The notes beneath the pieces are model-generated. The model saw only the letters and a program-made list of their open reading frames with translations, was not told the origin of the DNA and made no database searches. Shown piece after piece: positions 41,783 to 54,635 of a stretch of 64,000 bases of DNA; positions within the stretch are counted from its first letter, which is position 1, and the number at the start of each line of letters is the position of its first letter. The position numbers were made by a program, and so were the translations under genes. Source of the stretch: Muricauda sp. SCSIO 64092 (GTDB lineage: Bacteria > Bacteroidota > Bacteroidia > Flavobacteriales > Flavobacteriaceae); NCBI RefSeq assembly GCF_023016285.1, contig NZ_CP095413.1:2418001-2482000 (forward strand), in the 5' to 3' direction.

Positions 41783-41849
41783 AACAATAATATTTGTAGG
41801 ACTACAAATAAAGTTGTTATTTTCTTACGAGCTAATAGCTACAAACAGG

Positions 41850-43751
41850 ATGGAAGAAATAAAATTAAATTTCATAAATCTCCTCAATGAAGAGGGAACA
41901 ATTCAATTGTTTAGAACGGAATATAATCAACAAGCCATTGAAGAGGAAGCATTACATGTTTATAGTTTAGTGCCAAAAGATAATGAGGAATATCAAAAAT
42001 TCATTGTATCCTTTGATAATAGAGAAGGCTTTGAAGAATACACTTGCTCAATATGGGAAAATGTTGAGCTTACCAAAAGGTGGTTGTCCACTTTACTTAG
42101 AAATAAACTAGAAACAATTGAGGACGATTCCCTTACCTTCAATATACGCCGTAAAAGATTTGAAACCTCCTTTGATTTCATTCTCAATGAGACGGATTAC
42201 GGTAATCAAGTAATTAATGTTGCCCCATACTACTTAAAAGCAAAAAAACAATTTGGATTTCTAATTGATTTTCGATTTAGAAAAAAACAAGGTTTAGCGT
42301 TTAACAAAGAGGTGCAACGATTAAGCTTGAGCTTAGATAAAAATTATAGAAGTAATAAGAACTATTACGCAGACAAGTATCAAAAGATAAGAGGATTTAT
42401 AGATTATAAACTTAAAGACTTGCTTGTTTTTAGAACAGAAATGGATGAGCTTAAATTCAATAATGATTTAGTAAATCTTACAGCAAATAAGCTGGAAAAA
42501 AAGCAATATGTTTTTGGAAATGGTAAGATTGGTTTTTCTCAGTTTCAAGGGGTCAAAAACTATGGCCCTTATAGAAGCGTTGATTCAGATATAACATATT
42601 TATTCATATTCGAGGATAGTTTTAAATCATTTGCAAACGACATTTATCTCAGTCTGATAGGCAAGACTAACCCTGGGACTTTCCCAGGAATGTCAGAAAT
42701 GTTTGGGCTTCCATTGTCTAAAGAAAACGTCAAAAGGGTTCCCATAAAAGAAATTAGCTTAGATAGTCTAAAGGAGTCAATATCCAAAATTCTTGATTAC
42801 AAAAAAAAGCATATCGAAAAGAGAATAATTGCTATACTCTTGGAAGAAAGTAGTGAAGACAATAATCCCGAAACAGACTCCCCGTATTATTATTTGAAGT
42901 ATAATCTACTCCGAGAGAATGTACCGGTACAAGTTCTAAGCAAAGAACGAGTAGGGTCGCAATATTCCTTAAAATGGTCAACCTCCAATATTGGTTTACA
43001 GATTTTTTCTAAACTCGGAGGAGTTCCTTGGTTAGTCAAACCCAGCAATCACGATTGTTTAATTTTAGGAATTGGGAGCTCTCACAAATACGATGAATCT
43101 ACCGGGAAAATACACAAATATTTGGCGTACTCAATTTGCCTAGATTCATCAGGTATTTATAAAAAACTATCTATTCTTTCAGAGTCTGAAGATGAACAGT
43201 CCTATTTAGAAGAATTGAAAAAGAATTTAATGTCTCTTTTAGAACAAGAATTTACAGAATATAGGAAAGTAGTTTTGCATGTTCCATTTAAGATTAAGCA
43301 AAAGGAAATTGATTCAATGGACGAAGCTCTCAGCCAATTTAAAGACGTGGACTTCAAAGTTATTAAGATAAATACGGACAACAAATTCTTTGGGTTCAGT
43401 CGTCATAATACACAAGTGCCTTATGAAAGCAGTTATATCAAGTTAGCCAAAAATGAATATTTGGTTTGGTTTGAAGGTTTGCAATATGGGAAAGAAATAG
43501 TTTTTCAAAGAATCAGCAACCCAGTTCATATAAAGTTCTTAAACTCAAAGTCAACTTCAAAAGCAGAGGATAAAACCTACCTGCAGGATGTACTCAACCT
43601 ATCTGGTGCAAATTGGAGAGGATTTAATGCCAAATCAATACCGATATCTGTTTATTATTCAAAGATTATAGCAGAATATACCAAAGCCTTCGAAGGTTTT
43701 GACGGTTTTGAAAAGGGAATTTTTTCTACTAATAAACCATGGTTCTTATAA
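41850..43751 (+). CDS. Prokaryotic Argonaute (PIWI-domain) protein, apparently catalytically inactive
   Basis: 633 residues from the ATG at 41850. The C-terminal half is a PIWI domain: DCLILGIGSSHKYDESTGK is at the position of the first catalytic Asp (usually GxDxS/H), but Gly stands there; the RKVVLHVPFK segment lacks the Asp normally after the HRDG-type motif; the end has NWRGFNAKSIPISVYYSKIIAEY as in other pAgos. Loss of catalytic residues is typical of pAgos that act with a partner effector. The next gene, 9 bases on, encodes a SIR2 protein. Guide-directed target sensing that activates the partner is the likely role. Confidence 0.8.
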   Translation: MEEIKLNFINLLNEEGTIQLFRTEYNQQAIEEEALHVYSLVPKDNEEYQKFIVSFDNREGFEEYTCSIWENVELTKRWLSTLLRNKLETIEDDSLTFNIRRKRFETSFDFILNETDYGNQVINVAPYYLKAKKQFGFLIDFRFRKKQGLAFNKEVQRLSLSLDKNYRSNKNYYADKYQKIRGFIDYKLKDLLVFRTEMDELKFNNDLVNLTANKLEKKQYVFGNGKIGFSQFQGVKNYGPYRSVDSDITYLFIFEDSFKSFANDIYLSLIGKTNPGTFPGMSEMFGLPLSKENVKRVPIKEISLDSLKESISKILDYKKKHIEKRIIAILLEESSEDNNPETDSPYYYLKYNLLRENVPVQVLSKERVGSQYSLKWSTSNIGLQIFSKLGGVPWLVKPSNHDCLILGIGSSHKYDESTGKIHKYLAYSICLDSSGIYKKLSILSESEDEQSYLEELKKNLMSLLEQEFTEYRKVVLHVPFKIKQKEIDSMDEALSQFKDVDFKVIKINTDNKFFGFSRHNTQVPYESSYIKLAKNEYLVWFEGLQYGKEIVFQRISNPVHIKFLNSKSTSKAEDKTYLQDVLNLSGANWRGFNAKSIPISVYYSKIIAEYTKAFEGFDGFEKGIFSTNKPWFL

Positions 43752-43760
43752 ACTTTTAAG

Positions 43761-44819
43761 ATGGAAATTGCAGGAGAGAACATACTGTTTTTGCTAGGCG
43801 CGGGCGCAAGCCATGAAGCGGAAATTCCGATTTCATTTCAAATGGTAGATCAAATAGAAATGTTAGTAATAGATGATCCTAAATGGTCCCAATTCAAAGA
43901 ATTGTACTACTATCTAAAAAGTAGCATTCAATATGCTGATGGTATTTTTGGAAATTTCAATGATCCTTTTAATGTTGAGAAGCTACTAATTGTAATTACA
44001 GAAATAGAAAAGAGAGACAAGAATATTATGTATCCATTTATTGGCACATGGAATATGAGATTAATGGATTTAGCAGGAGATAATTTTACCAATCTAACTG
44101 CCTTTAAGGAGCTAATTATTAACAAGCTGAACGAGTGGGTAAGACTAAAAGACTACGGAAAAGCGAATTATTATGAAGGTTTTGCTAGTCTAAAAAATGA
44201 AATAGGAAATCTTTTAAGAGTGTTTACTCTAAATTACGACTTATGTTTTGAAAGGGTAGTTGGTAAAAGTCAAAGTATAGAGTTAGGTTTTGATTCGAGT
44301 ACTAAAGAGTGGCATTATGCCAACTTTGATTCACATGACAGCAAGGACTTTTTCCTATATAAACTACATGGTTCAATTAATTGGTATACAACTGACGAAC
44401 AAATTAGTAAGTTGAAGATTAGTGATGACCCGGTTGAATCTCCAGAATTAATTTTTGGTATTCAGCACAAAATGACATCAATTGATCCATATTTTTTCTT
44501 TTCATCGGAATTCAGAAAACTATGCTTGGAGGCTGAGACTAAGTTAATAATATGCTTAGGTTATAGTTTTTCTGATGATTATATAAATAATATTATTTCA
44601 CAAGCGGTTATTGAGAAGGATGAAGCCAAAATTTTGATTGTAGCTGGTCCAAATGATGACGGCGATAAGTTGGTAAAAAGTGTTTCAAAAAAGTTGAAAA
44701 TCACAAAAGAATCAATTCTTGTTGAACCAATTGGGGCAAAGAAGTTTCTGCTAGAAAAGATGAATAAAGATTATCTTACTCAACACATCCATGATTCTAA
44801 AGATGCACCCTTCCAATAA
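43761..44819 (+). CDS. SIR2-domain effector, Argonaute partner
   Basis: 352 residues, second gene of the Argonaute pair. N-terminal SIR2 fold: ILFLLGAGASHEAEIPIS (NAD-binding GAGxS), VFTLNYDLCFE (the TxNYD element of defence SIR2 proteins), LYKLHGSINW (LHGSxxW with the catalytic His) and LIICLGYSFSDDYIN. The protein has no APAZ domain, so this is not the usual short-pAgo SIR2-APAZ arrangement; it fits the separate-effector type described for long-B Argonautes. Such SIR2 enzymes deplete NAD+ to abort phage infection. Confidence 0.85.
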   Translation: MEIAGENILFLLGAGASHEAEIPISFQMVDQIEMLVIDDPKWSQFKELYYYLKSSIQYADGIFGNFNDPFNVEKLLIVITEIEKRDKNIMYPFIGTWNMRLMDLAGDNFTNLTAFKELIINKLNEWVRLKDYGKANYYEGFASLKNEIGNLLRVFTLNYDLCFERVVGKSQSIELGFDSSTKEWHYANFDSHDSKDFFLYKLHGSINWYTTDEQISKLKISDDPVESPELIFGIQHKMTSIDPYFFFSSEFRKLCLEAETKLIICLGYSFSDDYINNIISQAVIEKDEAKILIVAGPNDDGDKLVKSVSKKLKITKESILVEPIGAKKFLLEKMNKDYLTQHIHDSKDAPFQ

Positions 44820-44854: not shown

Positions 44855-45955
44855 CTATTTATTGACAGCGAAAATCTCTTTCAATTGTTTGACCATACCC
44901 CCATTTCCGGAGACGGTAATCTCCCCGATTTTATCGGCGATTTTTTCAACATACTCCATCTCCTTCAACTTAAAGAGCATCTCGTTTTCTTCCATCAGCT
45001 TTGCGGTGTTCAACAAACTTCGGGTAGAAGCGGTCTCTTCACGTCGGGTAATGATATTGGCCTGAGCGCGTTTTTGGGCCACCAAAACCTGGTTCATGAT
45101 CTCTTTCATTTCACCGGTCAGGATTACATCACGAATACCACAGCTCAAAACGGTAACACCCAACTGGGCAGCGGTTTCCTTGATATCTGCAAACACGGCT
45201 TCCGCAATGCTTTCCTTACGCTCTAAAAGCTCATCCAAGGTGTAGGTGCCGATGTAGGCAAGCAAGACCAACTGCATTGCGATGTACAATTGCTTTTCAT
45301 AGTCTTTGTTGTCCAATAAGGCCCTTTCGATATCCATAACCTTATACTGGGTATAGCAGTTGATACGAATGGCAGCCTTGTCTTTGGTCAACAGTTCCTG
45401 ACCAGAGATTTCCAATTGCAATTGACGCATATCGGCCCGGGCAATTTTGATGGTGATATCATTTTTCCAAAAGTAGTATGTACCGCTTTCCAGTGTTTTG
45501 ATATACACATCATCCACCAAAAGAACAGCCTTCTCATAAGCCGCAACTTCCAAAGTACGAACATAGGCCCGTAATTGAGGATGACCCAACATTGCCTTGC
45601 TGATATCTTCCGTGATATAGATTTTGCTCAAGTCCGCCTTGACGAACCCATAATCGATCAAACCTTTCCAGAAAGCATATTTGCCCGCAGTAAGGACTTG
45701 TTTCAAATTTCCGTTTTCAGAAACCAAAACCAATTCAGCATCCTTGACTTCAATAACATGCAACATGGCTTCCAAGCTTTGGTCCCGTAGCAAGATTTCC
45801 AATGCTATGGGAGCTATAAAGGCTTCGGTAAGGTCATATACCATAACCTTGGTTTTGAGGCCTACCCAGTGTGTTCCTTGGGGAATCACCTTTTGGTAAT
45901 CTCCTTTTTTGAAGACCAAACCTACTTTTCCTGCATTGATTCGTACTCTTTTCAT
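44855..45955 (-). CDS. Slipin-family SPFH/band-7 protein of the RNA-repair island
   Basis: 366 residues. SPFH domain of the slipin type at about 150-310 (LLTKDKAAIRINCYTQYKVMD and RKESIAEAVFADIKETAAQLGVTVLSCGIRDVILTGEMKEIMNQVL), preceded by about 140 residues of unusual N-terminal repeats with two GxYxFWK motifs. No strong membrane helix. It is the last gene of a leftward unit whose promoter, operator and leader RNA match those of rtcB. Slipins are recurrent neighbours of RtcB in bacterial RNA-repair loci. Its role there is not known; a scaffold for repair at the membrane is a guess. Confidence 0.88.
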   Translation of the reverse strand: MKRVRINAGKVGLVFKKGDYQKVIPQGTHWVGLKTKVMVYDLTEAFIAPIALEILLRDQSLEAMLHVIEVKDAELVLVSENGNLKQVLTAGKYAFWKGLIDYGFVKADLSKIYITEDISKAMLGHPQLRAYVRTLEVAAYEKAVLLVDDVYIKTLESGTYYFWKNDITIKIARADMRQLQLEISGQELLTKDKAAIRINCYTQYKVMDIERALLDNKDYEKQLYIAMQLVLLAYIGTYTLDELLERKESIAEAVFADIKETAAQLGVTVLSCGIRDVILTGEMKEIMNQVLVAQKRAQANIITRREETASTRSLLNTAKLMEENEMLFKLKEMEYVEKIADKIGEITVSGNGGMVKQLKEIFAVNK

Positions 45956-46076
45956 TACTTAAAATTTGTGTCCGCCCCATCATATGACGGACGAACGGGT
46001 TAAACTATGTGCATAGATTCCAATTACTTGCTTTACAAAGGAAACCGTGGTTGTATATCATCCATTCGATACGGAA

Positions 46077-46355
46077 CTATTGGTTTTTGAGCTTAGGTGC
46101 CATTTGTTTTAACGTCATGCTTCCAGATGGGCTGTTGATAGCATAAGCATCAGTTTTCCAAAAGGAGGGATGACCGGCAACAAAATGGCCCTTTACATCA
46201 AAATAGCAATAATTCAAGGTAGTTTCAAGACTGTTGTTTGCTCCACCAGGGAAAAACAACCGATACAGAACTACGGTTTCTTGCCACATACGGAGTGACG
46301 ATCCGGAGGTCTTTTTACAAGTGACCATCTTGTCAAGAATGGATTTAAAATCCAT
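46077..46355 (-). CDS. Small hypothetical protein between tRNA-like RNA and slipin
   Basis: A 92-codon frame, start ATG just after the anticodon arm of a tRNA-like segment and inside a 17-base palindrome (ATGGATTTTAAATCCAT). The product is of normal composition (e.g. LFFPGGANNSLETTLNYCYF and SFWKTDAYAINSPSGSM), which suggests a real protein. No family recognised. In the same transcript as the slipin gene, about 120 bases upstream of it. The start in a palindrome may limit translation. Confidence 0.45.
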   Translation of the reverse strand: MDFKSILDKMVTCKKTSGSSLRMWQETVVLYRLFFPGGANNSLETTLNYCYFDVKGHFVAGHPSFWKTDAYAINSPSGSMTLKQMAPKLKNQ

Positions 46356-46358
46356 ATC

Positions 46359-46436
46359 CCACGTTATGAGCGTGGTGCTCTACCAACTGAGCTACGAGAT
46401 CTAAAAAAAGGTGACCTCGGCAGGAGTCGAACCTGC
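46359..46436 (-). tRNA. tRNA-like C: permuted halves, anticodon CAT
   Basis: Reading the minus strand, a T-arm (GCAGG-TTCGACT-CCTGC) with 3' acceptor strand CGAGGTC-A-CC comes first (46436-46411), then a T-run, then the matching 5' acceptor GATCTCG, TA, a good D-arm and a perfect anticodon arm CCACG-CTCATAA-CGTGG (46401-46359). The acceptor strands pair over all 7 positions (one G-U), but the 3' half precedes the 5' half. No T-arm of normal sequence follows the 5' half. Either a permuted tRNA or the scar of deletions in a tRNA array. Confidence 0.55.
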
Positions 46437-46440
46437 GCGT

Positions 46441-46521
46441 CCATCTGCTGTTCTGACCTAACTGAACTACAATCCCCTTTGGGATTGATGGGATTCGAAC
46501 CCATGACTCACAGAACTGGGG
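46441..46521 (-). tRNA. tRNA-like B: permuted halves
   Basis: On the minus strand a 3' half (TCTGT, variable GAGTC, T-arm ATGGG-TTCGAAT-CCCAT, acceptor CAATCCC, A) is followed after only AAG by a 5' half with acceptor GGGATTG, TA, D-arm GTTC/GAAC and half anticodon stem GCAGA. Acceptor strands pair perfectly, and GCAGA pairs with TCTGT. The anticodon itself cannot be read because the loop is split. Confidence 0.5.
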
Positions 46522-46707
46522 GCTATTTTTTGGAAAACAACCGAAACCATCAAGTCAAGTTGCACATGAAAACCTAATGCCCTTCGGCAAAGCTTCATAC
46601 AATAGTGCCATACAGAGACACCCAACAAGACCTGCTTGATATCTTGCTCCCGTACTTCGATTATGCTCAGCATAAACTCCTACGGGAATCTTTTTCAATG
46701 GACTTCG
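46522..46707 (-). other. Spacer between tRNA-like B and A
   Basis: No cloverleaf elements seen. A 68-codon frame covers part of it but ends by reading through tRNA-like B, so I do not call it. Contains a TACGGGAGC / GATTCCCGTA pairing possibility. Confidence 0.35.
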
Positions 46708-46913
46708 TACCTCTTGCCAGATTCGAACTGGCACTTTCGTCGAAACGAATAGATTGGCTCTAAATGCGCTTCCCTACTTTGAATCTTGTTCATTTCGGTG
46801 CTTCTGCAAATTCTATTTATTGACGGGCACGCCACCAACAACATCATCCAATCACTCTGTGGTTACGATCCAAGGTCTTTTACCACAGCTCTTCCTTTTA
46901 AGCTAAAGAGGTA
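46708..46913 (-). tRNA. tRNA-like A: split by an insertion of about 130 bases
   Basis: On the minus strand a 5' half (acceptor ACCTCTT, TA, D-arm GCTT/GAGC; 46912-46888) and a 3' half (T-arm GCCAG-TTCGAAT-CTGGC, acceptor AAGAGGT, A; 46732-46708) are separated by about 155 bases where a normal tRNA has about 22. The acceptor strands pair perfectly, including one extra T-A pair. The inserted part has a GTGGT/ACCAC stem and a TTCGT-TTCG-ACGAA hairpin. Could be an intron-bearing or disrupted tRNA; anticodon not readable. Confidence 0.5.
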
Positions 46914-46922
46914 TTTGATTAA

Positions 46923-46981
46923 GCCTCGCCAGCTACCCACGTCTGACGAGGCACTACTATGAAGCTGATTCCAAAAGCTTC
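46923..46981 (-). ncRNA. Two-hairpin 5' leader RNA, copy 2 (tRNA-like/slipin unit)
   Basis: Minus strand: hairpin 1 GAAGCT ... AGCTTC (46981-46961), linker ATAGTAGT, hairpin 2 with a 10-bp stem GCCTCGTCAG / CTGGCGAGGC and loop ACGTGGGTAG (46952-46923), then CTT. The same architecture precedes rtcB (53474-53525), with compensatory changes in three stem pairs and a conserved loop. It begins a few bases after the inferred transcription start. Confidence 0.75.
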
Positions 46982-46996
46982 CATTTAATTACATGA

Positions 46997-47039
46997 CAAA
47001 GATTCCAACAGTACTGCGCAGTGATTTTGCGCAGTAAAT
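46997..47039 (-). promoter_or_regulatory. Operator plus -7 box, shared with the rtcB promoter
   Basis: Two CTGCGCAG-type palindromic half-sites (47013-47035) followed after 8 bases by AATCTTTG on the minus strand (47004-46997), the likely -7 element. The rtcB promoter has the same parts at identical spacing. Likely bound by the WYL regulator encoded next to rtcB. Confidence 0.7.
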
Positions 47040-47059
47040 ATTATTTAATAAATGTTGGG

Positions 47060-47545
47060 TTATACCGCCAAGTCTGCACAAGATGAACTTGCAAAAGCAT
47101 TGGGTTTTGCCTTAAAAACAAACCTCATCCCAAGGATATAGCCCATAGCTTCTTTTAATGCCACATTTGATTCAAATTTTGGATCCGTATTGATATCCGC
47201 ATGAACTTCAAGTTCGACATCGTATCTGTCAAGAATATGACAGATGGCATAGGCTGTTTCAACAGACATGGCTACCTCTTTGAGCATTCGTTCTTTAGTG
47301 CTTATTTTAGTAGTTCCCTTCAGATTTTTGATAAACATAAATCCTCCTTTGCCTTCCCTAAGTATAACCACTACAGTTGCATAGGCAACATAAGATTTAT
47401 AGGCTTGCGAATCGGACCCTACACAAATCTTAAGTCGATATCCCGCCTTTTGCTCCCTGACTATGGCCTCCTCGACAAGTGTTGTGATGGACTTGTCAAA
47501 AGCTTTACCACTAAAATTTCTCCATTTGTTGACTGCTATTTTCAT
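47060..47545 (-). CDS. YkuK-family (DUF458) RNase H-fold protein
   Basis: 161 residues. The family is recognised from LKICVGSDSQAYKSYVAYATVVVI (first acidic residue of the RNase H fold), VELEVHADINTDPKFES (second), and FKAKPNAFASSSCADLAV (ending with the final Asp). It starts 29 bases after the last tRNA of the 20-tRNA array on the same strand, so the array transcript most likely carries it. A role as a processing or decay nuclease for array RNAs is plausible. Family members are uncharacterised to my knowledge. Confidence 0.85.
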   Translation of the reverse strand: MKIAVNKWRNFSGKAFDKSITTLVEEAIVREQKAGYRLKICVGSDSQAYKSYVAYATVVVILREGKGGFMFIKNLKGTTKISTKERMLKEVAMSVETAYAICHILDRYDVELEVHADINTDPKFESNVALKEAMGYILGMRFVFKAKPNAFASSSCADLAV

Positions 47546-47574
47546 GATTTCTAATCATTATTCTTTTTTTGTTG

Positions 47575-47647
47575 TGGAACAGACCCGAATCGAACGGATA
47601 CCTCTGGTGCTTCAAACCAACGTGCAGACCTACTACACTACTGTTCC
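47575..47647 (-). tRNA. tRNA-Phe(GAA), array position 20
   Basis: Acceptor GGAACAG/CTGTTCC, D-stem GTGT/GCAC, anticodon arm TTGGT-TTGAAGC-ACCAG, T-arm ATCCG-TTCGATT-CGGGT, discriminator A. Variable loop of 4. Last tRNA of the array, just before the YkuK gene. Confidence 0.88.
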
Positions 47648-47653
47648 ATTTTG

Positions 47654-47726
47654 GGTGTACTCCGGGACTCGAACCCTGTTCTCCCCATTCACAGTGGGGT
47701 GCTTTACCGGATAAGCTAGAGACACC
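47654..47726 (-). tRNA. tRNA-His(GTG), array position 19
   Basis: Extra G at -1 opposite discriminator C, as required for His; anticodon arm CCCCA-CTGTGAA-TGGGG; T-loop TTCGAGT. The acceptor has two mismatches and the T-stem one, so it is divergent. Confidence 0.85.
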
Positions 47727-47732
47727 ATTTTG

Positions 47733-47803
47733 TTAACCTGGAAGGATTCGAACCTTCATCTCTGGAGTCAAAGTCCAGTGTGCTCCCATTGCACCACAGA
47801 TTA
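47733..47803 (-). tRNA. tRNA-Gln(TTG), array position 18
   Basis: Acceptor TAATCTG/CAGGTTA, D-arm with GTGC/GCAC, anticodon arm CTGGA-CTTTGAC-TCCAG, T-arm GAAGG-TTCGAAT-CCTTC, discriminator A. Weak U1-A72 pair is typical of Gln. Confidence 0.9.
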
Positions 47804-47808
47804 ATTTG

Positions 47809-47880
47809 TAGGCCTAATAGGATTTGAACCCATACCACAAGGGTCGAAACCTTGCATGCTATCCATTACACCATAAGCCT
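47809..47880 (-). tRNA. tRNA-Arg(TCG), array position 17
   Basis: Acceptor AGGCTTA/TAGGCCT, D-stem GTGT/GCAT, anticodon arm CAAGG-TTTCGAC-CCTTG, T-arm ATGGG-TTCAAAT-CCTAT, discriminator A. TCG could read the CGN box if U34 is unmodified. Confidence 0.88.
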
Positions 47881-47884
47881 ATGG

Positions 47885-47958
47885 TACTCCACCCAAGATT
47901 CGAACTTGGACTGTATGGATTTTAAGTCCATTGCCTCTTCCATTTGGGCTAGTGGAGC
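47885..47958 (-). tRNA. tRNA-Leu(TAA) with short variable loop, array position 16
   Basis: Acceptor GCTCCAC/GTGGAGT, anticodon arm ATGGA-CTTAAAA-TCCAT, variable loop only ACAGT, T-arm CCAAG-TTCGAAT-CTTGG, discriminator A followed by CCA in the DNA. Bacterial tRNA-Leu normally has a long variable arm; this one does not. Confidence 0.85.
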
Positions 47959-47964
47959 AAAAAG

Positions 47965-48038
47965 TACAGGGAGAGAGATTCGAACTCTCAAATTCCAGAT
48001 TCTAAATCTGGCGCCTATACCAATTCGGCTATCCCTGC
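47965..48038 (-). tRNA. tRNA-Leu(TAG) with short variable loop, array position 15
   Basis: Acceptor GCAGGGA/TCCCTGT, D-stem GCC/GGC, anticodon arm CCAGA-TTTAGAA-TCTGG, variable loop AATTT, T-arm GAGAG-TTCGAAT-CTCTC, discriminator A. Like its neighbour it lacks the long variable arm of bacterial tRNA-Leu. Confidence 0.85.
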
Positions 48039-48043
48039 TTGTG

Positions 48044-48116
48044 TTGAGATGTAAGGAGTCGAATCTGAATCTTTCGCCTTATGAGAGCGATGCTCTACCT
48101 TTTAAGCTACATCTCA
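48044..48116 (-). tRNA. tRNA(CAT), Met or Ile2, array position 14
   Basis: Acceptor TGAGATG/CATCTCA perfect, D-stem GCTT/GAGC, anticodon arm TCGCT-CTCATAA-GGCGA, discriminator A. The T-stem (TCAGA/CCTTA) has two mismatches. CAT may be elongator Met or, with lysidine, Ile for ATA. Confidence 0.8.
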
Positions 48117-48121
48117 ATTTG

Positions 48122-48193
48122 TTGAGGCAATAGGATTCGAACCTATGACCATCACGATGTAAGCGTGATGCTCTTCCACTGAGCTATGCCTCA
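48122..48193 (-). tRNA. tRNA-Val(TAC), array position 13
   Basis: Acceptor TGAGGCA/TGCCTCA, D-stem GCTC/GAGC, anticodon arm TCACG-CTTACAT-CGTGA, T-arm ATAGG-TTCGAAT-CCTAT, discriminator A. All stems intact. Confidence 0.92.
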
Positions 48194-48198
48194 AATAG

Positions 48199-48270
48199 TA
48201 CTCCGTAAGGGAATCGAACCCTTAGTTCCACATAGAAAGTGTGGCGTCTTGACCATTTGACCAACGGAGC
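48199..48270 (-). tRNA. tRNA-Glu(TTC), array position 12
   Basis: Acceptor GCTCCGT/ACGGAGT, D-stem GTC/GAC, anticodon arm CCACA-CTTTCTA-TGTGG, T-arm AAGGG-TTCGATT-CCCTT, discriminator A. Confidence 0.92.
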
Positions 48271-48340
48271 ATATGCCAACCCGCCAGTTGGCCCGTGCGC
48301 TAAAAATGTCTACCAGACATTTTCTAATCGCTTCGTCCTG
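48271..48340 (-). other. Spacer with two hairpins inside the tRNA array
   Basis: The only long gap in the array (70 bases; others are 1-12). Minus strand: an AAAATGTC / GACATTTT stem extended by GCG/CGC (48331-48297) and a GCCAAC / GTTGGC hairpin (48292-48275). Not a cloverleaf. Could be a processing signal, weak terminator or remnant. Confidence 0.5.
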
Positions 48341-48412
48341 TCTAAGGGACAGGATTCGAACCTGCAACCTCCCGCTTCCAAAGCGGGTAAACAGCCATTG
48401 TTATTCCCCTAG
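48341..48412 (-). tRNA. tRNA-Pro(TGG), divergent D-arm, array position 11
   Basis: Acceptor CTAGGGG/CCCTTAG, anticodon arm CCCGC-TTTGGAA-GCGGG, T-arm GCAGG-TTCGAAT-CCTGT, discriminator A. Position 8 is A rather than U, and the D-stem (TAAC/GTTT) is weak. Confidence 0.85.
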
Positions 48413-48418
48413 ATTTTG

Positions 48419-48491
48419 CGGTTCATACGAGAATCGAACTCGTATCTCCCGAGAGACTAGTCGGGAAGGATAGCCATTACCCCAATGAACC
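48419..48491 (-). tRNA. tRNA-Asp(GTC) or tRNA-Thr(AGT), 8-base anticodon loop, array position 10
   Basis: Acceptor GGTTCAT/ATGAACC, D-stem GGGT/ATCC, T-arm ACGAG-TTCGATT-CTCGT. The anticodon stem CCCGA/TCGGG closes a loop of eight, CTAGTCTC. Counting from U33 gives AGT (Thr); shifting by one gives GTC (Asp). Discriminator G favours Asp. Confidence 0.75.
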
Positions 48492-48499
48492 CTATTTTG

Positions 48500-48571
48500 T
48501 ACATCTACTAAGATTTGAACTTAGACTTAGAGATTAGAAGTCTCTTGTGCTATCCGTTACACCATAGATGC
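48500..48571 (-). tRNA. tRNA-Arg(TCT), array position 9
   Basis: Acceptor GCATCTA/TAGATGT, D-stem GTGT/GCAC, anticodon arm AGAGA-CTTCTAA-TCTCT, T-arm CTAAG-TTCAAAT-CTTAG, discriminator A. Confidence 0.9.
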
Positions 48572-48576
48572 TTCTG

Positions 48577-48647
48577 CACGTCCATAAGGATTTGAACCCT
48601 AACCACAAGTTTTGGAGACTCGCATGCTACCATTACACCATGAACGT
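48577..48647 (-). tRNA. tRNA-Trp(CCA), array position 8
   Basis: Acceptor ACGTTCA/TGGACGT, D-stem GTGT/GCAT, anticodon arm CGAGT-CTCCAAA-ACTTG, T-arm TAGGG-TTCAAAT-CCTTA, discriminator G, as expected for bacterial Trp. Confidence 0.9.
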
Positions 48648-48657
48648 GTTTTATAGG

Positions 48658-48729
48658 AGCATCTATCGAGACTCGAACTCGAAACTGAAGATTGGAAGTC
48701 TACTATGTTGCCAATTACACCATAGATGC
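48658..48729 (-). tRNA. tRNA-Gly(TCC), array position 7
   Basis: Acceptor GCATCTA/TAGATGC, D-stem GTGT/ACAT, anticodon arm GTAGA-CTTCCAA-TCTTC (one mismatch), T-arm TCGAG-TTCGAGT-CTCGA, discriminator T, as for bacterial Gly. Confidence 0.9.
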
Positions 48730-48735
48730 CTGTTG

Positions 48736-48818
48736 TGGAAGCAGTAGGACTCGAACCTACATGTTCCGAAGAGACCAGATTTACAGTCTGGCGAGCCAAC
48801 CAATTGCTCAATGCTTCC
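48736..48818 (-). tRNA. tRNA-Tyr(GTA), array position 6
   Basis: Acceptor GGAAGCA/TGCTTCC, D-stem GAGC/GCTC, anticodon arm CCAGA-CTGTAAA-TCTGG, long variable arm TCTCTTCGGAACAT, T-arm GTAGG-TTCGAGT-CCTAC, discriminator A. A normal class II tRNA. Confidence 0.93.
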
Positions 48819-48826
48819 ATAATTTG

Positions 48827-48900
48827 AGACAAGGACAGGATTTGAACCTGCAAAAAACAGATTTGCAATCTGCTGCTTTAATCCATTCAGCCACCTTGTC
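48827..48900 (-). tRNA. tRNA-Cys(GCA), array position 5
   Basis: Acceptor GACAAGG/CCTTGTC, D-stem GCT/AGC, anticodon arm GCAGA-TTGCAAA-TCTGT, T-arm GCAGG-TTCAAAT-CCTGT, discriminator T, the Cys identity base. Confidence 0.92.
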
Positions 48901-48904
48901 TTAG

Positions 48905-48976
48905 CGATATTGGTAGGGCTCGAACCTACAACCTCAGACTTAACAGGTCTTTGCTCTACCATTGAGCTACAATATC
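48905..48976 (-). tRNA. tRNA-Asn(GTT), array position 4
   Basis: Acceptor GATATTG/CAATATC, D-stem GCTC/GAGC, anticodon loop CTGTTAA on stem AAGAC/GTCTG (first pair mismatched), T-arm GTAGG-TTCGAGC-CCTAC, discriminator G, as for Asn. Confidence 0.92.
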
Positions 48977-48981
48977 TTTGG

Positions 48982-49069
48982 CGGAGAGTAAAGGAATCGA
49001 ACCTTTATCACGAGGACCGTGAACTTGCTTAGCAGACAAGCATAACAAACCAATATTTATCTACTCTCC
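48982..49069 (-). tRNA. tRNA-Ser(GCT), array position 3
   Basis: Acceptor GGAGAGT/ACTCTCC, anticodon arm CTTGT-CTGCTAA-GCAAG, long variable arm TTCACGGTCCTCGTGAT, T-arm AAAGG-TTCGATT-CCTTT, discriminator G followed by encoded CCA. The D-arm is A/T-rich and weak. Confidence 0.9.
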
Positions 49070-49074
49070 ATTTG

Positions 49075-49161
49075 CGGAAGGAGTGGGAGTCGAACCCACA
49101 CGAGTCGTTATCTCCGAACACTTTTCAAGAGTGTGGCCACCGCCCATTGGCTTGTCCTTCC
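49075..49161 (-). tRNA. tRNA-Ser(TGA), array position 2
   Basis: Acceptor GGAAGGA/TCCTTCC, anticodon arm ACACT-CTTGAAA-AGTGT, long variable arm of about 18 bases, T-arm GTGGG-TTCGACT-CCCAC, discriminator G. Confidence 0.92.
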
Positions 49162-49167
49162 GTTTTG

Positions 49168-49241
49168 TTGACCCCATGGGAATCGAACCCATGACCTCGA
49201 CCTTAAAAGGGCCTTGCTCTAACCTGCTGAGCTACGAGTCA
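49168..49241 (-). tRNA. tRNA-Lys(TTT), array position 1
   Basis: Acceptor TGACTCG/GGGGTCA (two weak pairs), D-stem GCTC/GAGC, anticodon arm AGGCC-CTTTTAA-GGTCG, T-arm ATGGG-TTCGATT-CCCAT, discriminator A. First tRNA after the attenuator terminator, 23 bases downstream of its T-run. Confidence 0.9.
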
Positions 49242-49264
49242 ATCTTTATTTCAATGAACGACAT

Positions 49265-49292
49265 AAAAAAAGCACCTCTTTTCGAGAGGTGC
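49265..49292 (-). terminator. Intrinsic terminator between the leader peptide and the tRNA array (attenuator)
   Basis: Minus strand: stem GCACCTCT / AGAGGTGC (49292-49285 and 49279-49272) with loop CGAAA, followed by seven T. It lies after a short leader ORF and before the first tRNA, with no other gene to terminate. The segment CCTCTC of the 5' arm can pair instead with GGGAGG inside the leader ORF (49348-49343). Confidence 0.85.
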
Positions 49293-49328
49293 CTTTAACT
49301 ATACTTAGCATATGTTCTGTTATCAGAT

Positions 49329-49457
49329 TTACATATGTATACCCTCCCTTTTTGTTTTATTAATGGATTTCACATCACTATAATACTCGACCATGAGTAT
49401 CGGCGAGCGAAAGCCAAAACACCATTCTGTATTGTGCTGTAAACTATTTTGTCTCAT
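49329..49457 (-). CDS. 42-codon leader peptide containing codons for 19 amino acids (tRNA sensor)
   Basis: ATG at 49457 follows an A-rich stretch (AAAAGAAAAGAAACC), a good Bacteroidota ribosome binding region. The frame ends with TAA at 49329-49331, 36 bases before the terminator stem. The first 30 codons include every amino acid but Ala. The Arg, Leu and Ser boxes are each present twice over, by both isoacceptor types (AGA and CGC; TTA and CTC; AGT and TCG). So 22 of 23 codon boxes occur. Codons 36-39 (AAA AGG GAG GGT) hold the GGGAGG that can disrupt the terminator. I read this as the leader peptide of a classical attenuator that responds to shortage of any charged tRNA. It is too short to be found by ordinary gene callers. 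Confidence 0.75.
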   Translation of the reverse strand: MRQNSLQHNTEWCFGFRSPILMVEYYSDVKSINKTKREGIHM

Positions 49458-49506
49458 GGTTTCTTTTCTTTTATGCCTAATCCTGAATTCGCTGGAAATG
49501 ACGCTG

Positions 49507-49537
49507 CAAATATGAAATCAATTTTTGAATTATCCAA
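49507..49537 (-). promoter_or_regulatory. Promoter of the leader peptide-tRNA array unit
   Basis: Minus strand: TTG (49537-49535), 20 bases, then CATATTTG (49514-49507), close to the Bacteroidota consensus TTG-N19-21-TAnnTTTG. A start near 49500 would leave about 43 bases before the leader ATG. Confidence 0.65.
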
Positions 49538-49720
49538 GATAAATTTAAAATTAATTACTTGATTATCAATTAGTTAAGCTATGTTTGGATAATAGAATCC
49601 CTGTCCGCTTTTCAGCAGATTTTTAACATTCTACAATCGCCTGTCTCTCAATTGTTTTCTGTTTCAATTACCCTGTTTTATGTTTTTTTACTTTTCAAAC
49701 ATGATCTTAAAATAATCCAT

Positions 49721-49750
49721 AAAAAAAGCGCCCGTTGTATTGGACGCTTT
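49721..49750 (-). terminator. Terminator of the rtcB operon
   Basis: Minus strand: AAAGCGTCC / GGGCGCTTT stem with seven T after it, about 175 bases past the last nucleotidyltransferase stop. The 49751-49925 gap has a possible 41-codon frame but no clear gene. Confidence 0.85.
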
Positions 49751-49925
49751 GTATATAGTATCAAGATTTTTTTTAAATCAATGGGTACATCCATTTAAAC
49801 TAGACACATCACGTCCCTTTCGCGAGGATAATTCCAATATCCAGCGATAGCTACACTGGCTAATCAGCGCTCTTGGTTTAATATGTACTCTACCGTTTTT
49901 CATTTCTGGTGCAAATATGCACGAA

Positions 49926-50999
49926 TTAATGTCTTGCTCCCAAATTTTCCAAATAGAACTTTTCTCGAAGAGCGCACAATAGATCATTTATAGCGTTAAT
50001 TTGTGGGCGAATTGGTAAAATGGATTCAACATATTGATTTTCTAAATCTCGTTTCAGATTTTCTGCCCAACCTACCAACTCATCATACTCATATTTTCCA
50101 TGCTTTATGTCCAATAAAAACTCTCGATCCGGGCGTTTGACATGGATTGTGTGTTCTGATGCTATTTCTTTGGCCATATGTAGCAACCTGAAGGTATGCA
50201 TCATATTTTTGGAATCGTAGTTTTTACCATGTGACACGGTTGTTTTATAGCGTTCCTCATTTCGTTTGCCTACCCAATCCCAGTATTCTTTATACTTTTT
50301 ACAGTATGATGAATAACCATCTTTATTGAAAAATAACATTCCAATAGGTGTTTCTTCCTTGGGTATCGAGCTCAATGCAATATCGTTTGCCTTATCACTT
50401 TTTATGATTCCTTTGAATGGGATATTTGGGTTGTGATATAAGTTGTGACAATCCTTTAGATGAGCTATGTTGGATATACCGCAATGTTCTTGTTGGATAT
50501 TATTTTTTTCAAGAAATATGTTCAGGGGCAACGACCTCCCTTGATTGTAGACAAAACAAAAATCCAGAACGGACTTGCGTTCCTTTTCAACTGGATTCAC
50601 AATCTTTTTCTCTAGTCCTCTGGCCTTTTTAATTTGTGCGTAGGCATAGTTGGCAAATGATTTTTCACATTGCTTTGATAAGAAAAGCTGTAATCTTATT
50701 TCGTTGAAAATTTCATGTTTATAAAGAATACACTCTTCTGGAACATTCAGTAATTCCAATATGTTCGGATTGTTCTTTGAGCAAAGCTCAATGAACTTGC
50801 GGAGTTCATAATACACAATATCATTTGATTCGTTGTTTACCTGTCCTATGTAGTCCAAAGAATAAAAGTGTTGCTTGGGAAGAATGAACACACCCCTGAT
50901 ATCCGTGTCGGATGAGGGTGTGTCCAGTCCATAGGCCCTACTTCCGCTGATGCATTCGAAAATAATGCTCCCGGATTTCTTTAGCTCCTCTATGGTCAT
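49926..50999 (-). CDS. RlaP-type nucleotidyltransferase 2 (RNA-repair polymerase-beta family)
   Basis: 357 residues. The nucleotidyltransferase signature is ECISGSRAYGLDTPSSDTDIRG (GS then DxD) at residues 15-36, the pattern of the RNA-repair-associated polymerase-beta family (COG3541/RlaP). A helical C-terminal region follows with a YNQGRSLPLNIFLEKN segment and a DIKHGKYEYDELV motif. Start ATG overlaps the end of the previous gene by 4 bases (ATGA). Last gene of the rtcB operon. Probably adds or restores nucleotides at damaged RNA ends; the substrate is inferred from context. Confidence 0.88.
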   Translation of the reverse strand: MTIEELKKSGSIIFECISGSRAYGLDTPSSDTDIRGVFILPKQHFYSLDYIGQVNNESNDIVYYELRKFIELCSKNNPNILELLNVPEECILYKHEIFNEIRLQLFLSKQCEKSFANYAYAQIKKARGLEKKIVNPVEKERKSVLDFCFVYNQGRSLPLNIFLEKNNIQQEHCGISNIAHLKDCHNLYHNPNIPFKGIIKSDKANDIALSSIPKEETPIGMLFFNKDGYSSYCKKYKEYWDWVGKRNEERYKTTVSHGKNYDSKNMMHTFRLLHMAKEIASEHTIHVKRPDREFLLDIKHGKYEYDELVGWAENLKRDLENQYVESILPIRPQINAINDLLCALREKFYLENLGARH

Positions 51000-51719
51000 G
51001 ATATGGTTTTTAAAAAGAGGTTATTGAATTCTTTAGGATTTGGTTTCCGGTTGATCAAATCATTTTTCACACCTTCATTTTCATTAACCACTTGTTTGAC
51101 CAGCTCAATCAAAACAGGGGCAACAGGTTCGTTACTTTTTTCGATGTGCTTGCTCTTTAAGAGTATTAGATTGTCCAACATCCTATGATATTCTACATCG
51201 ATTAAAGGATATAGTTCCTTAAAAAACACAGGAGGAATCGTATCCTTTTCATACACCCATTTAGCACATAAGGCAGTGCGAATAGCATAAAAGAAACTTT
51301 TCAACGTCATTCTATCTGAACCCAAGGTTTCTTCAAAACCCCTGTTCATACTATGATAATGATAAAATCCGGAAACAGGATTGAAATTGTTTGCGGCCAA
51401 TTCCTTTATCTCGTTGAGAAAGGCAGCATTCGCCCTATAAACAATAGGAGAAAACAACCATCCCAAAAAGGAGGCATTGGATTTTGCTAACAATTTGAGT
51501 GCTTTTCGAACATCCCATCCAGAACCATCCAAATCCTCATCAGTCATAAATTGAATGGAATCTTTTTGCTCCCAAAGATTCAAATACCAATCCTTATTAT
51601 GCTTGTACACAAAACGAATGTCATAATCTGAATCCGGCGAAGCGAAGCCCCAAGCCCTGCTTCCCGATTCTACAGCGAATAGTATCTCTATATTCTTTTC
51701 TCGCTCTATCTCTGAGAGC

Positions 51720-51742
<23 letters not shown>
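50996..51742 (-). CDS. RlaP-type nucleotidyltransferase 1
   Basis: 248 residues. Signature FAVESGSRAWGFASPDSDYDIRF at residues 22-44 with GS and DxD metal-binding residues, then a WDVRKALKLLAKSN segment and a helical domain, as in COG3541 proteins. It overlaps the upstream unknown gene by 23 bases and the second nucleotidyltransferase by 4, so the two paralogues are made together with RtcB. Two paralogues in one operon suggest that different RNA ends or tRNA classes are served. Confidence 0.9.
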
Positions 51743-53525
<1,783 letters not shown>

Positions 53526-53615: not shown

Positions 53616-54635
53616 ATGGCCCTCAATAAAAATGCACTGATTCGCTACAAAACCATTGATAAATGCTTGCAGAATGGGTATCGTCAATGGACTCTGAAAG
53701 ATTTAATCGAAGCTTGTTCCGATGCACTATATGAATATGAGGGACGGTCTATCAATGTCAGCAAGCGCACGGTACAGTTGGACATTCAGATGATGCGCAG
53801 TGACAAATTGGGCTACAATGCCCCCATAGAGGTGTATGATAGGAAATACTACCGCTATGCCGATGAGGGCTATTCGATGACGGAGATCCCTTTAAATGAA
53901 AATGACATGAATGTGCTCTCCGAAACAGTGGAAATGTTGAAGCAGTTTAAAGACTTCTCGTTGTTCTCTGAACTAGGAGGTATTATCCAAAGATTGGAAG
54001 ACAAGGTTTATACTGAGAAAACTCGAAGTTCTTCCATCATCCATCTTGATAAGAATGAAAACCTTAAGGGCCTACATTGGCTGGATGAATTGTACCAAGC
54101 TATTCAAAAGAAAGTCGTCCTAAAAGTGGAGTACAAGTCCTTTAAGGCCACTGAAGCGAACCTGATTACGTTTCACCCGTATTTGCTAAAGGAATTCAAC
54201 AATCGGTGGTTTTTAATCGGTATGGGCAATAAAAACCGAGGAGTTGTCAATCTCGCGTTGGACAGAATTGTTGCTGTGGATTATGATTTCTCAACTCCTT
54301 ATGAAGAAAACGATTTTGATGCTGATGCTTTCTATAAAGATGTGGTTGGCGTAACGGTAAGTAGGGTGCGTCCGTCCGTTGTCAAGTTGTGGATTGACAA
54401 ACACAACGCCCCTTATGTATTGACGAAACCTTTACATCATTCACAACGTTTGGTCAAAGAATACGAAGATGGAAGCATTGAAATTACCTTTTTGGTAAAA
54501 CCCAACTTTGAGTTGGAACGTCTGCTCTTGGGTTTTGGAGAATCCATGGAGGTGCTAAAACCCGAAAAATTGAGAAACCGAATTGCTGAGAAGCTGAGGA
54601 ATGCAGTAGGGAAATATAGGATTCCACCCATTTAA
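53616..54635 (+). CDS. WYL-domain transcriptional regulator
   Basis: 339 residues. N-terminal winged-helix domain (residues 5-85; SKRTVQLDIQMMRSDKLGY is the recognition region), then a WYL domain (about 150-230; VVLKVEYKSFKATEANLITF, FHPYLLKEFNNRWFLIG, GVVNLALDRI) and a WCX C-terminal extension (VKLWIDKHNAPYVLTKPL). WYL domains are thought to sense nucleic acids or nucleotides, which would suit an RNA-damage response. Divergent from rtcB; the shared operator lies between them. Confidence 0.92.
   Translation: MALNKNALIRYKTIDKCLQNGYRQWTLKDLIEACSDALYEYEGRSINVSKRTVQLDIQMMRSDKLGYNAPIEVYDRKYYRYADEGYSMTEIPLNENDMNVLSETVEMLKQFKDFSLFSELGGIIQRLEDKVYTEKTRSSSIIHLDKNENLKGLHWLDELYQAIQKKVVLKVEYKSFKATEANLITFHPYLLKEFNNRWFLIGMGNKNRGVVNLALDRIVAVDYDFSTPYEENDFDADAFYKDVVGVTVSRVRPSVVKLWIDKHNAPYVLTKPLHHSQRLVKEYEDGSIEITFLVKPNFELERLLLGFGESMEVLKPEKLRNRIAEKLRNAVGKYRIPPI

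Follow-up and report, generated by a model that had tools for sequence, protein, structure and literature searches.

The 20-tRNA array of Muricauda sp. SCSIO 64092 is preceded by two tandem leader units, A and then B, each made up of a promoter-like box, an ORF and a terminator. We consider it very probable that these leaders are ribosome-mediated transcription attenuators, in which a halt of the ribosome at any hungry codon would form an antiterminator and turn the array on. Furthermore, it is likely that the leaders serve as a codon-by-codon inventory of the spare tRNA set, such that any failed codon would free the whole set, that the codon list and the parts list co-evolve, and that a TPR-like gene, an Rnl2-type RNA ligase and ribosome repair are connected to the same alarm through related leader classes. 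This proposal is based on the anatomy of the units, their recurrence, the complementarity between ORF tails and terminators, the codon breadth of the ORFs and its position, and the match of the leaders to the array, all of them read from the sequence.

Layout of the locus

The window is the whole stretch of 64,000 nucleotides analysed here. Codon coverage is counted in 23 boxes, i.e., the 20 amino acids with Arg, Leu and Ser split. The features of the locus are as follows:

53616..54635, plus strand: WYL-domain regulator, divergent from the rtcB operon (Pfam PF13280, PF25583)
52070..53458, minus strand: RtcB-family RNA ligase (Pfam PF01139)
between the RtcB and RlaP-family genes, minus strand: 117-aa ORF without a Pfam match
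50996..51742, minus strand: first RlaP-family nucleotidyltransferase (Pfam PF10127)
49926..50999, minus strand: second RlaP-family nucleotidyltransferase (Pfam PF10127), ending 22 bp upstream of leader A
49911..49918, minus strand: promoter-like box ATATTTGC of leader A, 7 nt from the ATG, a putative promoter
49778..49903, minus strand: leader A ORF of 41 codons, 19 amino acids and 22 of 23 boxes, with homologues
49811..49816, minus strand: GGACGT, putative antiterminator 5′ strand of leader A; its complement in the terminator is GCGTCC
49721..49749, minus strand: predicted intrinsic terminator of leader A, AAGCGTCCAATACAACGGGCGCTTTTTTT
49500..49540, minus strand: promoter-like region of leader B (TTG ... 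ATATTTGC), a putative promoter
49329..49457, minus strand: leader B ORF of 42 codons, 22 boxes in codons 1-33
49343..49348, minus strand: GGGAGG, putative antiterminator 5′ strand of leader B, codons 37-39
49265..49294, minus strand: predicted intrinsic terminator of leader B
47574..49241, minus strand: array of 20 tRNAs, one gene with an unassigned four-base anticodon (ARAGORN, Rfam)
47060..47545, minus strand: RNase H-like protein, downstream of the array (Pfam PF04308)

The first-pass annotation of this DNA had described the unit of leader B, and its 42-codon ORF (49457-49329), the terminator (49294-49265) and the array of 20 tRNAs (47574-49241) were all found in place, as was the complementarity of GGGAGG (49348-49343) to CCTCTC in the terminator 5′ arm. 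It had overlooked the leader A unit (ORF 49903-49778, terminator 49749-49721). The promoter that it placed upstream of leader B is present as a promoter-like box, which may function as such. Its statement that the array lacks Ala holds, but Ala is not the sole gap, as Ile and Thr tRNAs are missing too.

The window array is a second, diverged tRNA set. When compared with the 22 other tRNA sequences recovered from the genome, 15 of the 20 array tRNAs had a counterpart for the same amino acid, with a best identity of 53-77%. The array accounts for 18 of the 55 tRNA-model matches in the genome (among 150 of 972 candidates scored). No match to the T-box family was obtained with Rfam up to E 1 in 45500-51000; at this cutoff, the same region gave only tRNA, tRNA-Sec, YrlA-like, tmRNA-like and plastid UTR matches, and an assignment of the leaders to the T-box or another known RNA family was discarded.

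Several peculiarities of the array and its surroundings deserve mention. By eye, the array tRNA at 48418-48491, for which ARAGORN gives the four-base anticodon agtc, has an 8-base anticodon loop; it was counted as Asp. A 69-nt element without a tRNA call (48271-48339), located between the Pro and Glu tRNAs, contains two strong hairpins (−23.1 kcal/mol). Array tRNA genes of several relatives (L043:13905-14031, L054:5737-5868, L058:7755-7881, L105:18412-18534 and L114:11040-11166) seem to carry inserts of about 50 nt that split the anticodon arm and, by eye, contain inverted repeats. The RNase H-like gene, also found downstream of the array in L114, is followed on its 3′ side by degenerate tRNA-like and YrlA-like sequences, including truncated ones at 46339-46551; the segment 46710-46915 between this gene and the YrlA-like sequences resembles, by eye, a tRNA with a long insert, and short tRNA-like matches lie downstream of arrays in relatives too. 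Near the RNA repair island, at 41814-44819, a Piwi-domain protein (645 aa) and then a SIR2-like protein (352 aa) form a pair that resembles a short-Argonaute defence pair.

Leader classes in related loci and their candidate antiterminators

Relatives were collected by an RtcB protein search (80 loci kept of 108) and by means of the second RlaP-family protein, which was found in 24 of the 397 genomes of the family, the genome studied included, and around which the surrounding stretches were fetched. L117, L118 and L121 were dropped as lying on the same contigs as L061, L047 and L049. A first ORF listing ranked by the number of amino acids was used for discovery only. The counted leaders were selected on terminator class, gap and complementarity (score of at least 8), not on amino acids; the B leaders L113 and L114 were admitted below this score. 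One B row (L052 12559) and five A rows were removed by eye. Among the latter, L038 11923 and L039 13043 are longer frames that overlie a class D leader, L074 3139 and L093 4071 are the ends of an ordinary protein gene, and the fifth is L052 17361. L039 was shortened to start at an inner ATG, and L043 was added. Retaining the five A rows brings class A to 34 rows (18.2 amino acids, 20.6 boxes).

As a result, a short ORF followed by a predicted intrinsic terminator between it and the controlled genes was found to recur in 30 unique leaders of class A (terminator GCGTCCAA), 21 of class B (GCAYCTY or similar) and 47 of class C (about 25 codons, terminator CCGAAG). Class D, separated from A by ORF length (30 codons), contains 19 unique leaders of about 20 codons. 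The prediction that such an ORF precedes the arrays of homologous loci was borne out, with a class A leader upstream of 19 of the 21 arrays that have at least 10 ARAGORN tRNAs; the other two arrays belong to L074, which has a class C leader only, and L073, cut at the locus edge. Named hosts are Flagellimonas, Winogradskyella, Psychroserpens, Aquimarina, Zobellia and Cellulophaga, along with one Crocinitomicaceae MAG.

A search independent of rtcB, with the class A terminator pattern in the 397 genomes, listed 49 matches in 38 of them, and the reversed pattern gave no match in the same 397 genomes. By reading, 30 loci from this search comprised 17 with an A leader, 4 of D type, 6 ends of one protein gene and 3 with nothing. 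A phage origin was rejected, as none of the 7 viral contigs with the class A terminator pattern carries such a leader.

The leaders are found before other genes as well. In the 6 mapped loci that have a class C leader, it stands upstream of a TPR-like gene, the two checked showing mostly weak TPR matches. L127 has A and B leaders upstream of an Rnl2-type RNA ligase, and just three scattered tRNAs occur farther along. In L049, the genes after a D leader are an unknown ORF, RtcB, a PrfH-like protein with an RF-1 domain and a TPR-like gene (weak TPR match). An RtcB-like gene also follows a class D leader in L166 and L182. Class D leaders (e.g., L049:14134-14231) keep the antiterminator design, yet only about 5 codons would be sensed. 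A further unit of ORF and terminator (AAGTCGCTCTAC..GAGCGGC), with 19 and 18 amino acids in 40 codons, respectively, was noticed at L067:2557-2710 and L069:2625-2780, in loci that also have class C leaders.

The promoter-like box AT[AC]TTTG[CT] lies upstream of 19 of the 21 B leaders, the window included (vs. 1.5% of shuffles), and at most 30 nt from the ATG in 27 of the 30 A leaders, usually at 7 nt (vs. 0.3% of shuffles); this shuffle control is after the fact, because the box was read off the same sequences before counting. The textbook promoter TAnnTTTG was discarded, as it precedes just 4 of the 30 A leaders and 3 of the 21 B leaders.

In an unselected comparison by terminator type, complementarity between the ORF tail and the terminator 5′ arm reached a score of at least 14 in 56 of 65 ORF candidates before GCGTCC terminators, 49 of 52 before CCGAAG and 17 of 28 before GCAYCTY, vs. 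14 of 103 before other terminators. Mean scores in classes A-D were 17.3, 16.0, 17.0 and 16.5 vs. 10.1, 7.1, 10.0 and 7.8 for shuffled tails, values that are partly selected because a score of at least 8 was already required. The pairing is exemplified by GGACG/CGTCC (A), AGACGC/GCGTCT (L114), GGAAGGT/ACCTTCC (B of L058), GCTTCG/CGAAGC (C) and ACTTCG/CGAAGT (L059). In alignments A4 (27 of 29 A sequences) and A3 (28 of 43 C sequences), 95.2% and 89.8% of helix cells were paired, respectively, vs. 18-50% when slid by 1-3 columns. Compensatory changes are few: A4 and A3 each hold one double-change pair, a number reached by 62 and 133 of 500 shuffles. For class B (alignment A2, 21 of 21 sequences), RNAalifold gave no consensus antiterminator, and the core has just 5 bp in 6 of the 21 leaders. 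These data point to an antiterminator that would use the terminator 5′ arm and would thus be mutually exclusive with the terminator.

In folds predicted without the 3′ arm, all 29 A leaders, all 43 C leaders and 15 of the 21 B leaders have the 5′ arm held by upstream sequence at a probability of at least 0.5; the means are 0.74, 0.62 and 0.86 for A, B and C, respectively, vs. 0.43-0.45 for shuffled tails. For window leader A, the energies of the pre-terminator fold and the terminator hairpin are −22.7 and −11.9 kcal/mol; for window leader B, they are −16.9 and −14.6 kcal/mol. GGACGT of leader A lies within a longer, imperfect hairpin that is predicted to form ahead of the 3′ arm.

Folding with the ribosome at different positions, a check along the lines proposed in the first-pass annotation, gave results that depended on the segment. 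For a shorter segment with the ribosome at the stop codon, the terminator prevails, with mean probabilities of 0.93 (A), 0.85 (B) and 0.93 (C). For the whole leader at equilibrium, switching with ribosome position was not seen, as the terminator wins in nearly all states, with a stalled ribosome or none (class means of 0.79-0.94 for A and 0.72-0.92 for B). Window leader A even runs the wrong way, with a terminator probability of 0.53 when free, 0.26 with the ribosome at the stop codon and 0.91 with a stall at codon 12. Because equilibrium folding favours the terminator in nearly all states, the switch would have to be kinetic, the order of folding being decisive.

Codon breadth and the match to the tRNA array

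In accordance with the first-pass annotation, codons 1-30 of window leader B contain 19 amino acids and 22 of the 23 boxes, Ala alone being missing. A fraction of 0.0002 of 5,000 own-nucleotide shuffles was as broad, and none of 11,293 long-ORF windows (40-codon pieces cut from frames of 180 codons or more in the fetched loci) matched the box count; over all 42 codons, the excess is weak (P 0.03 for boxes, 0.10 for amino acids). Leader A reads Ala, its own missing amino acid being Phe. Its breadth is modest both in the first 30 codons (17 amino acids, P 0.19; 20 boxes, P 0.036) and in the whole ORF (boxes, P 0.04). The sensing zone was defined as the codons where a halted ribosome, covering 13 nt downstream, would leave the antiterminator strand free. 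In the window, it comprises codons 1-25 of leader A, with 17 amino acids and 19 boxes, which together with the 22 boxes of the B zone give a union of 23/23. One leader taken alone is suggestive, and it is the comparison across relatives that carries weight.

This comparison, which the first-pass annotation had suggested, showed an excess of codon boxes over shuffled ORFs. In the sensing zone of 15 A leaders less than 60% identical (about 24 codons), 18.73 boxes were found vs. 14.73 in own-nucleotide shuffles (z 10.4), 13.99 in long-ORF windows (z 11.7) and 16.61 when the codons of each ORF were permuted (z 7.0). The corresponding values for B (n = 15) are 17.87 vs. 16.37 (z 3.8), 15.42 (z 6.2) and 17.18 (z 2.6), and the C zone (n = 15) has 12.40 amino acids in 16 codons vs. 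10.78 (z 4.9), the C leader of L074 reaching 16 different residues in 16 codons. Class D shows no breadth excess in its sensing zone; it is a built-in negative control for breadth, and D leaders were ruled out as panel sensors. Four C rows (L124, L078, L086, L062) and one D row (L043) are omitted from the sensing-zone test.

Over the whole ORF, at least 22 of 23 boxes are present in 15 of the 30 A leaders vs. 0.2% of the 11,293 long-ORF windows. Neutral drift simulated from five A leaders to 35-60% identity left 15.5-17.3 boxes. Nine further A leaders from the terminator-pattern search, homologous but not identical to the earlier set, have a mean of 20.0 boxes vs. 14.4 (sd 0.52); in L181, all 23 boxes are found in 26 codons. 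Both boxes of Arg, Leu or Ser, counted where the amino acid occurs at least twice, are present in 133 of 146 chances vs. 108.4 (sd 4.9), and among representatives in 38 of 44 vs. 31.8 (z 2.3) and 36 of 39 vs. 29.2 (z 2.7). At less than 45% identity, the B signal is weak (P 0.04 for amino acids and 0.01 for boxes; P 0.15-0.27 for the placement of amino acids before the tail). Poor leaders also exist, with 14 zone boxes in L035 and 13 in L195, and the union of A and B boxes is 20.7 vs. 18.9 for two random windows (P 0.14, 18 loci).

The match between leaders and array was examined in 15 loci that carry an A leader, a B leader and an array with 6 tRNAs or more; Met, the first residue of every ORF, was not counted. 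Of the 176 amino acids that these arrays supply, 175 are read in the A or B zone. Of 33 amino acids read by neither leader, the array supplies one (Asp in L107), vs. 19.0 expected for random residues and 10.6 when arrays are permuted among loci; none of 4,000 permutations gave a value as low as 1. Shuffled leaders left 19.9 amino acids unread but supplied (sd 3.9, minimum 9 in 300). For eight hand-picked representatives, 0 of 18 unread amino acids are supplied (P 0.003), and in the whole-ORF version 1 of 13 (P 0.0027). The result was stable over footprints of 5-21 nt and the same whether the arrays comprised ARAGORN calls only or hand-read tRNAs as well. All these P values are approximate because the loci are related. 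Taken alone, A leaves 66 amino acids unread in 22 loci, of which 8 are supplied, and B leaves 65 in 17 loci, of which 9 are supplied. Leader log-odds correlate with amino acid frequency in the array (Spearman 0.57 for A and 0.50 for B).

It is which amino acids are omitted, and not their total, that is special, because shuffled leaders leave equally many unread (33.0). The first-pass annotation had proposed a leader that senses all tRNAs. The broad coverage stands, but strictly universal sensing was rejected for the array-matched panel, since 33 amino acids are unread in 15 loci and the A and B union is no fuller than in shuffled leaders. As the omitted amino acids are almost always not supplied by the array, "array-matched" replaces "senses all": the leaders appear to read every tRNA that the array can supply. 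In other words, the control codons would be cognate to what the controlled genes provide, and the leader would list the tRNAs that the array can replace.

Proposed mechanism, rival explanations and known systems

The first-pass reading of leader B as a ribosome-mediated attenuator gains support from the tail-terminator complementarity, which recurs in each leader class, and from breadth located where a halt would matter. In the normal state, the ribosome would reach the stop codon and melt or cover the antiterminator strand; the terminator would then form and keep the array silent. Should a tRNA be lost, e.g., to an anticodon nuclease, the ribosome would halt in codons 1-25 (A) or 1-33 (B), leaving the strand free to pair with the terminator 5′ arm while the 3′ arm is still to be made, such that transcription would continue into the tRNA genes. 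The kinetic nature of the switch, the silence of the array in normal growth and the inducing damage are what we infer. Having a promoter-like region of its own, B would not necessarily be silenced by a gap in A. Located beside RtcB and RlaP proteins, the array may naturally serve as a replacement after tRNA destruction. An attenuator in which regulatory codons are a small fraction responds less to a mild shortage (PMC1183508); for this reason, a mixed leader should ignore starvation and answer severe tRNA loss.

Among the rival explanations, we regard as unlikely a generic role of the leaders, in which they would sense that translation is slowed or blocked (e.g., by ribosome-targeting antibiotics or failed initiation) and the variety of their codons would be incidental. 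Such a sensor would agree with the 5′ arm being held by upstream sequence by default, with no ribosome near and no 3′ arm, and with class D having the same design without codon breadth; moreover, the E. coli toiL uORF answers at least five antibiotic classes according to the abstract of PMC12121999. It is disfavoured because it needs neither breadth, nor its placement, nor the array match, whereas breadth is above the nulls in A, C and, to a lesser degree, B, is located before the antiterminator, and leaves gaps that track the array locus by locus.

We give very little credence to the idea that the ORFs encode small functional or arrest peptides, the amino acid variety reflecting protein function. 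Some purifying selection is discernible in classes A-C, where pN/pS is 0.38-0.70 (0.38-0.62 at 75-99% identity), a range compatible with translation of the ORFs, and class C peptides are rather conserved; nevertheless, twelve diverse, hand-picked A leaders share a mean identity of 28%, the peptides diverging while the arrangement is kept in relatives from other Flavobacteriaceae, and the over-representation of both Arg, Leu and Ser boxes is not required by peptide function. Just as improbable is a scheme in which the divergent WYL protein (53616-54635) senses and the leaders with their terminators merely insulate the array from the rtcB operon. A WYL regulator is indeed divergent from the operon here (Pfam), ORFs with the same sequence start are placed likewise in L032, L042, L055 and L075, and the silent Anabaena tRNA array is controlled by a protein repressor, TrcR (PMC10272220); yet insulation requires no ORF, no antiterminator complement and no array-matched boxes. 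The WYL gene may well be a second layer at the rtcB promoter, added to attenuation by the leaders.

Attenuation is the textbook case of the ribosome as a sensor for one or a few amino acids, and anticodon nucleases destroy tRNAs in phage defence and bacterial competition. If the array-matched attenuator is true, a leader auditing the whole tRNA panel would make attenuation a general alarm for tRNA destruction and would account for the switching-on of silent tRNA arrays beside RtcB systems. The leader-array match offers a computational route to finding such sensors. Within a literature search covering titles and abstract openings, with subscription journals mostly outside it, no leader matched to a tRNA array was described.

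Some features of the proposed mechanism are shared with known systems. The Anabaena trn array is likewise a normally silent extra array switched on by translational stress; it differs in being controlled by the ribbon-helix-helix repressor TrcR, and the available text mentions neither attenuation nor a leader (PMC10272220). The Salmonella rsr-yrlBA-rtcBA operon is also an RtcB operon responding to tRNA damage, but through RtcR, a CARF-domain activator sensing tRNA fragments, with neither attenuation nor a leader mentioned in the portion of PMC7790460 at hand; in our locus, RtcR with a CARF domain was not found beside rtcB, the divergent neighbour being the WYL protein. The gene order of L049 is near the RtcB-PrfH neighbourhood described in PMC6514570, a source that, as far as accessible, mentions no attenuator for these ribosome repair modules. 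The toiL uORF of E. coli topAI-yjhQ is similarly multipurpose, responding to several translation stresses by halts at different positions; unlike the present leaders, it acts on a ribosome-binding site and Rho and senses antibiotics, its abstract being silent on codon breadth (PMC12121999).

The trp, his, leu, thr and ilv attenuators have in common with the leaders described here a short leader ORF, a terminator, an alternative antiterminator and control codons cognate to what the controlled genes supply. The thr and ilv leaders sense two or three amino acids. In known attenuators, the leader codons specify the amino acid made by the operon, as stated in PMC1183508. Unlike in these amino acid operons, the codons of the leaders found here span up to all 23 boxes and match the tRNA gene set, not a biosynthetic product.
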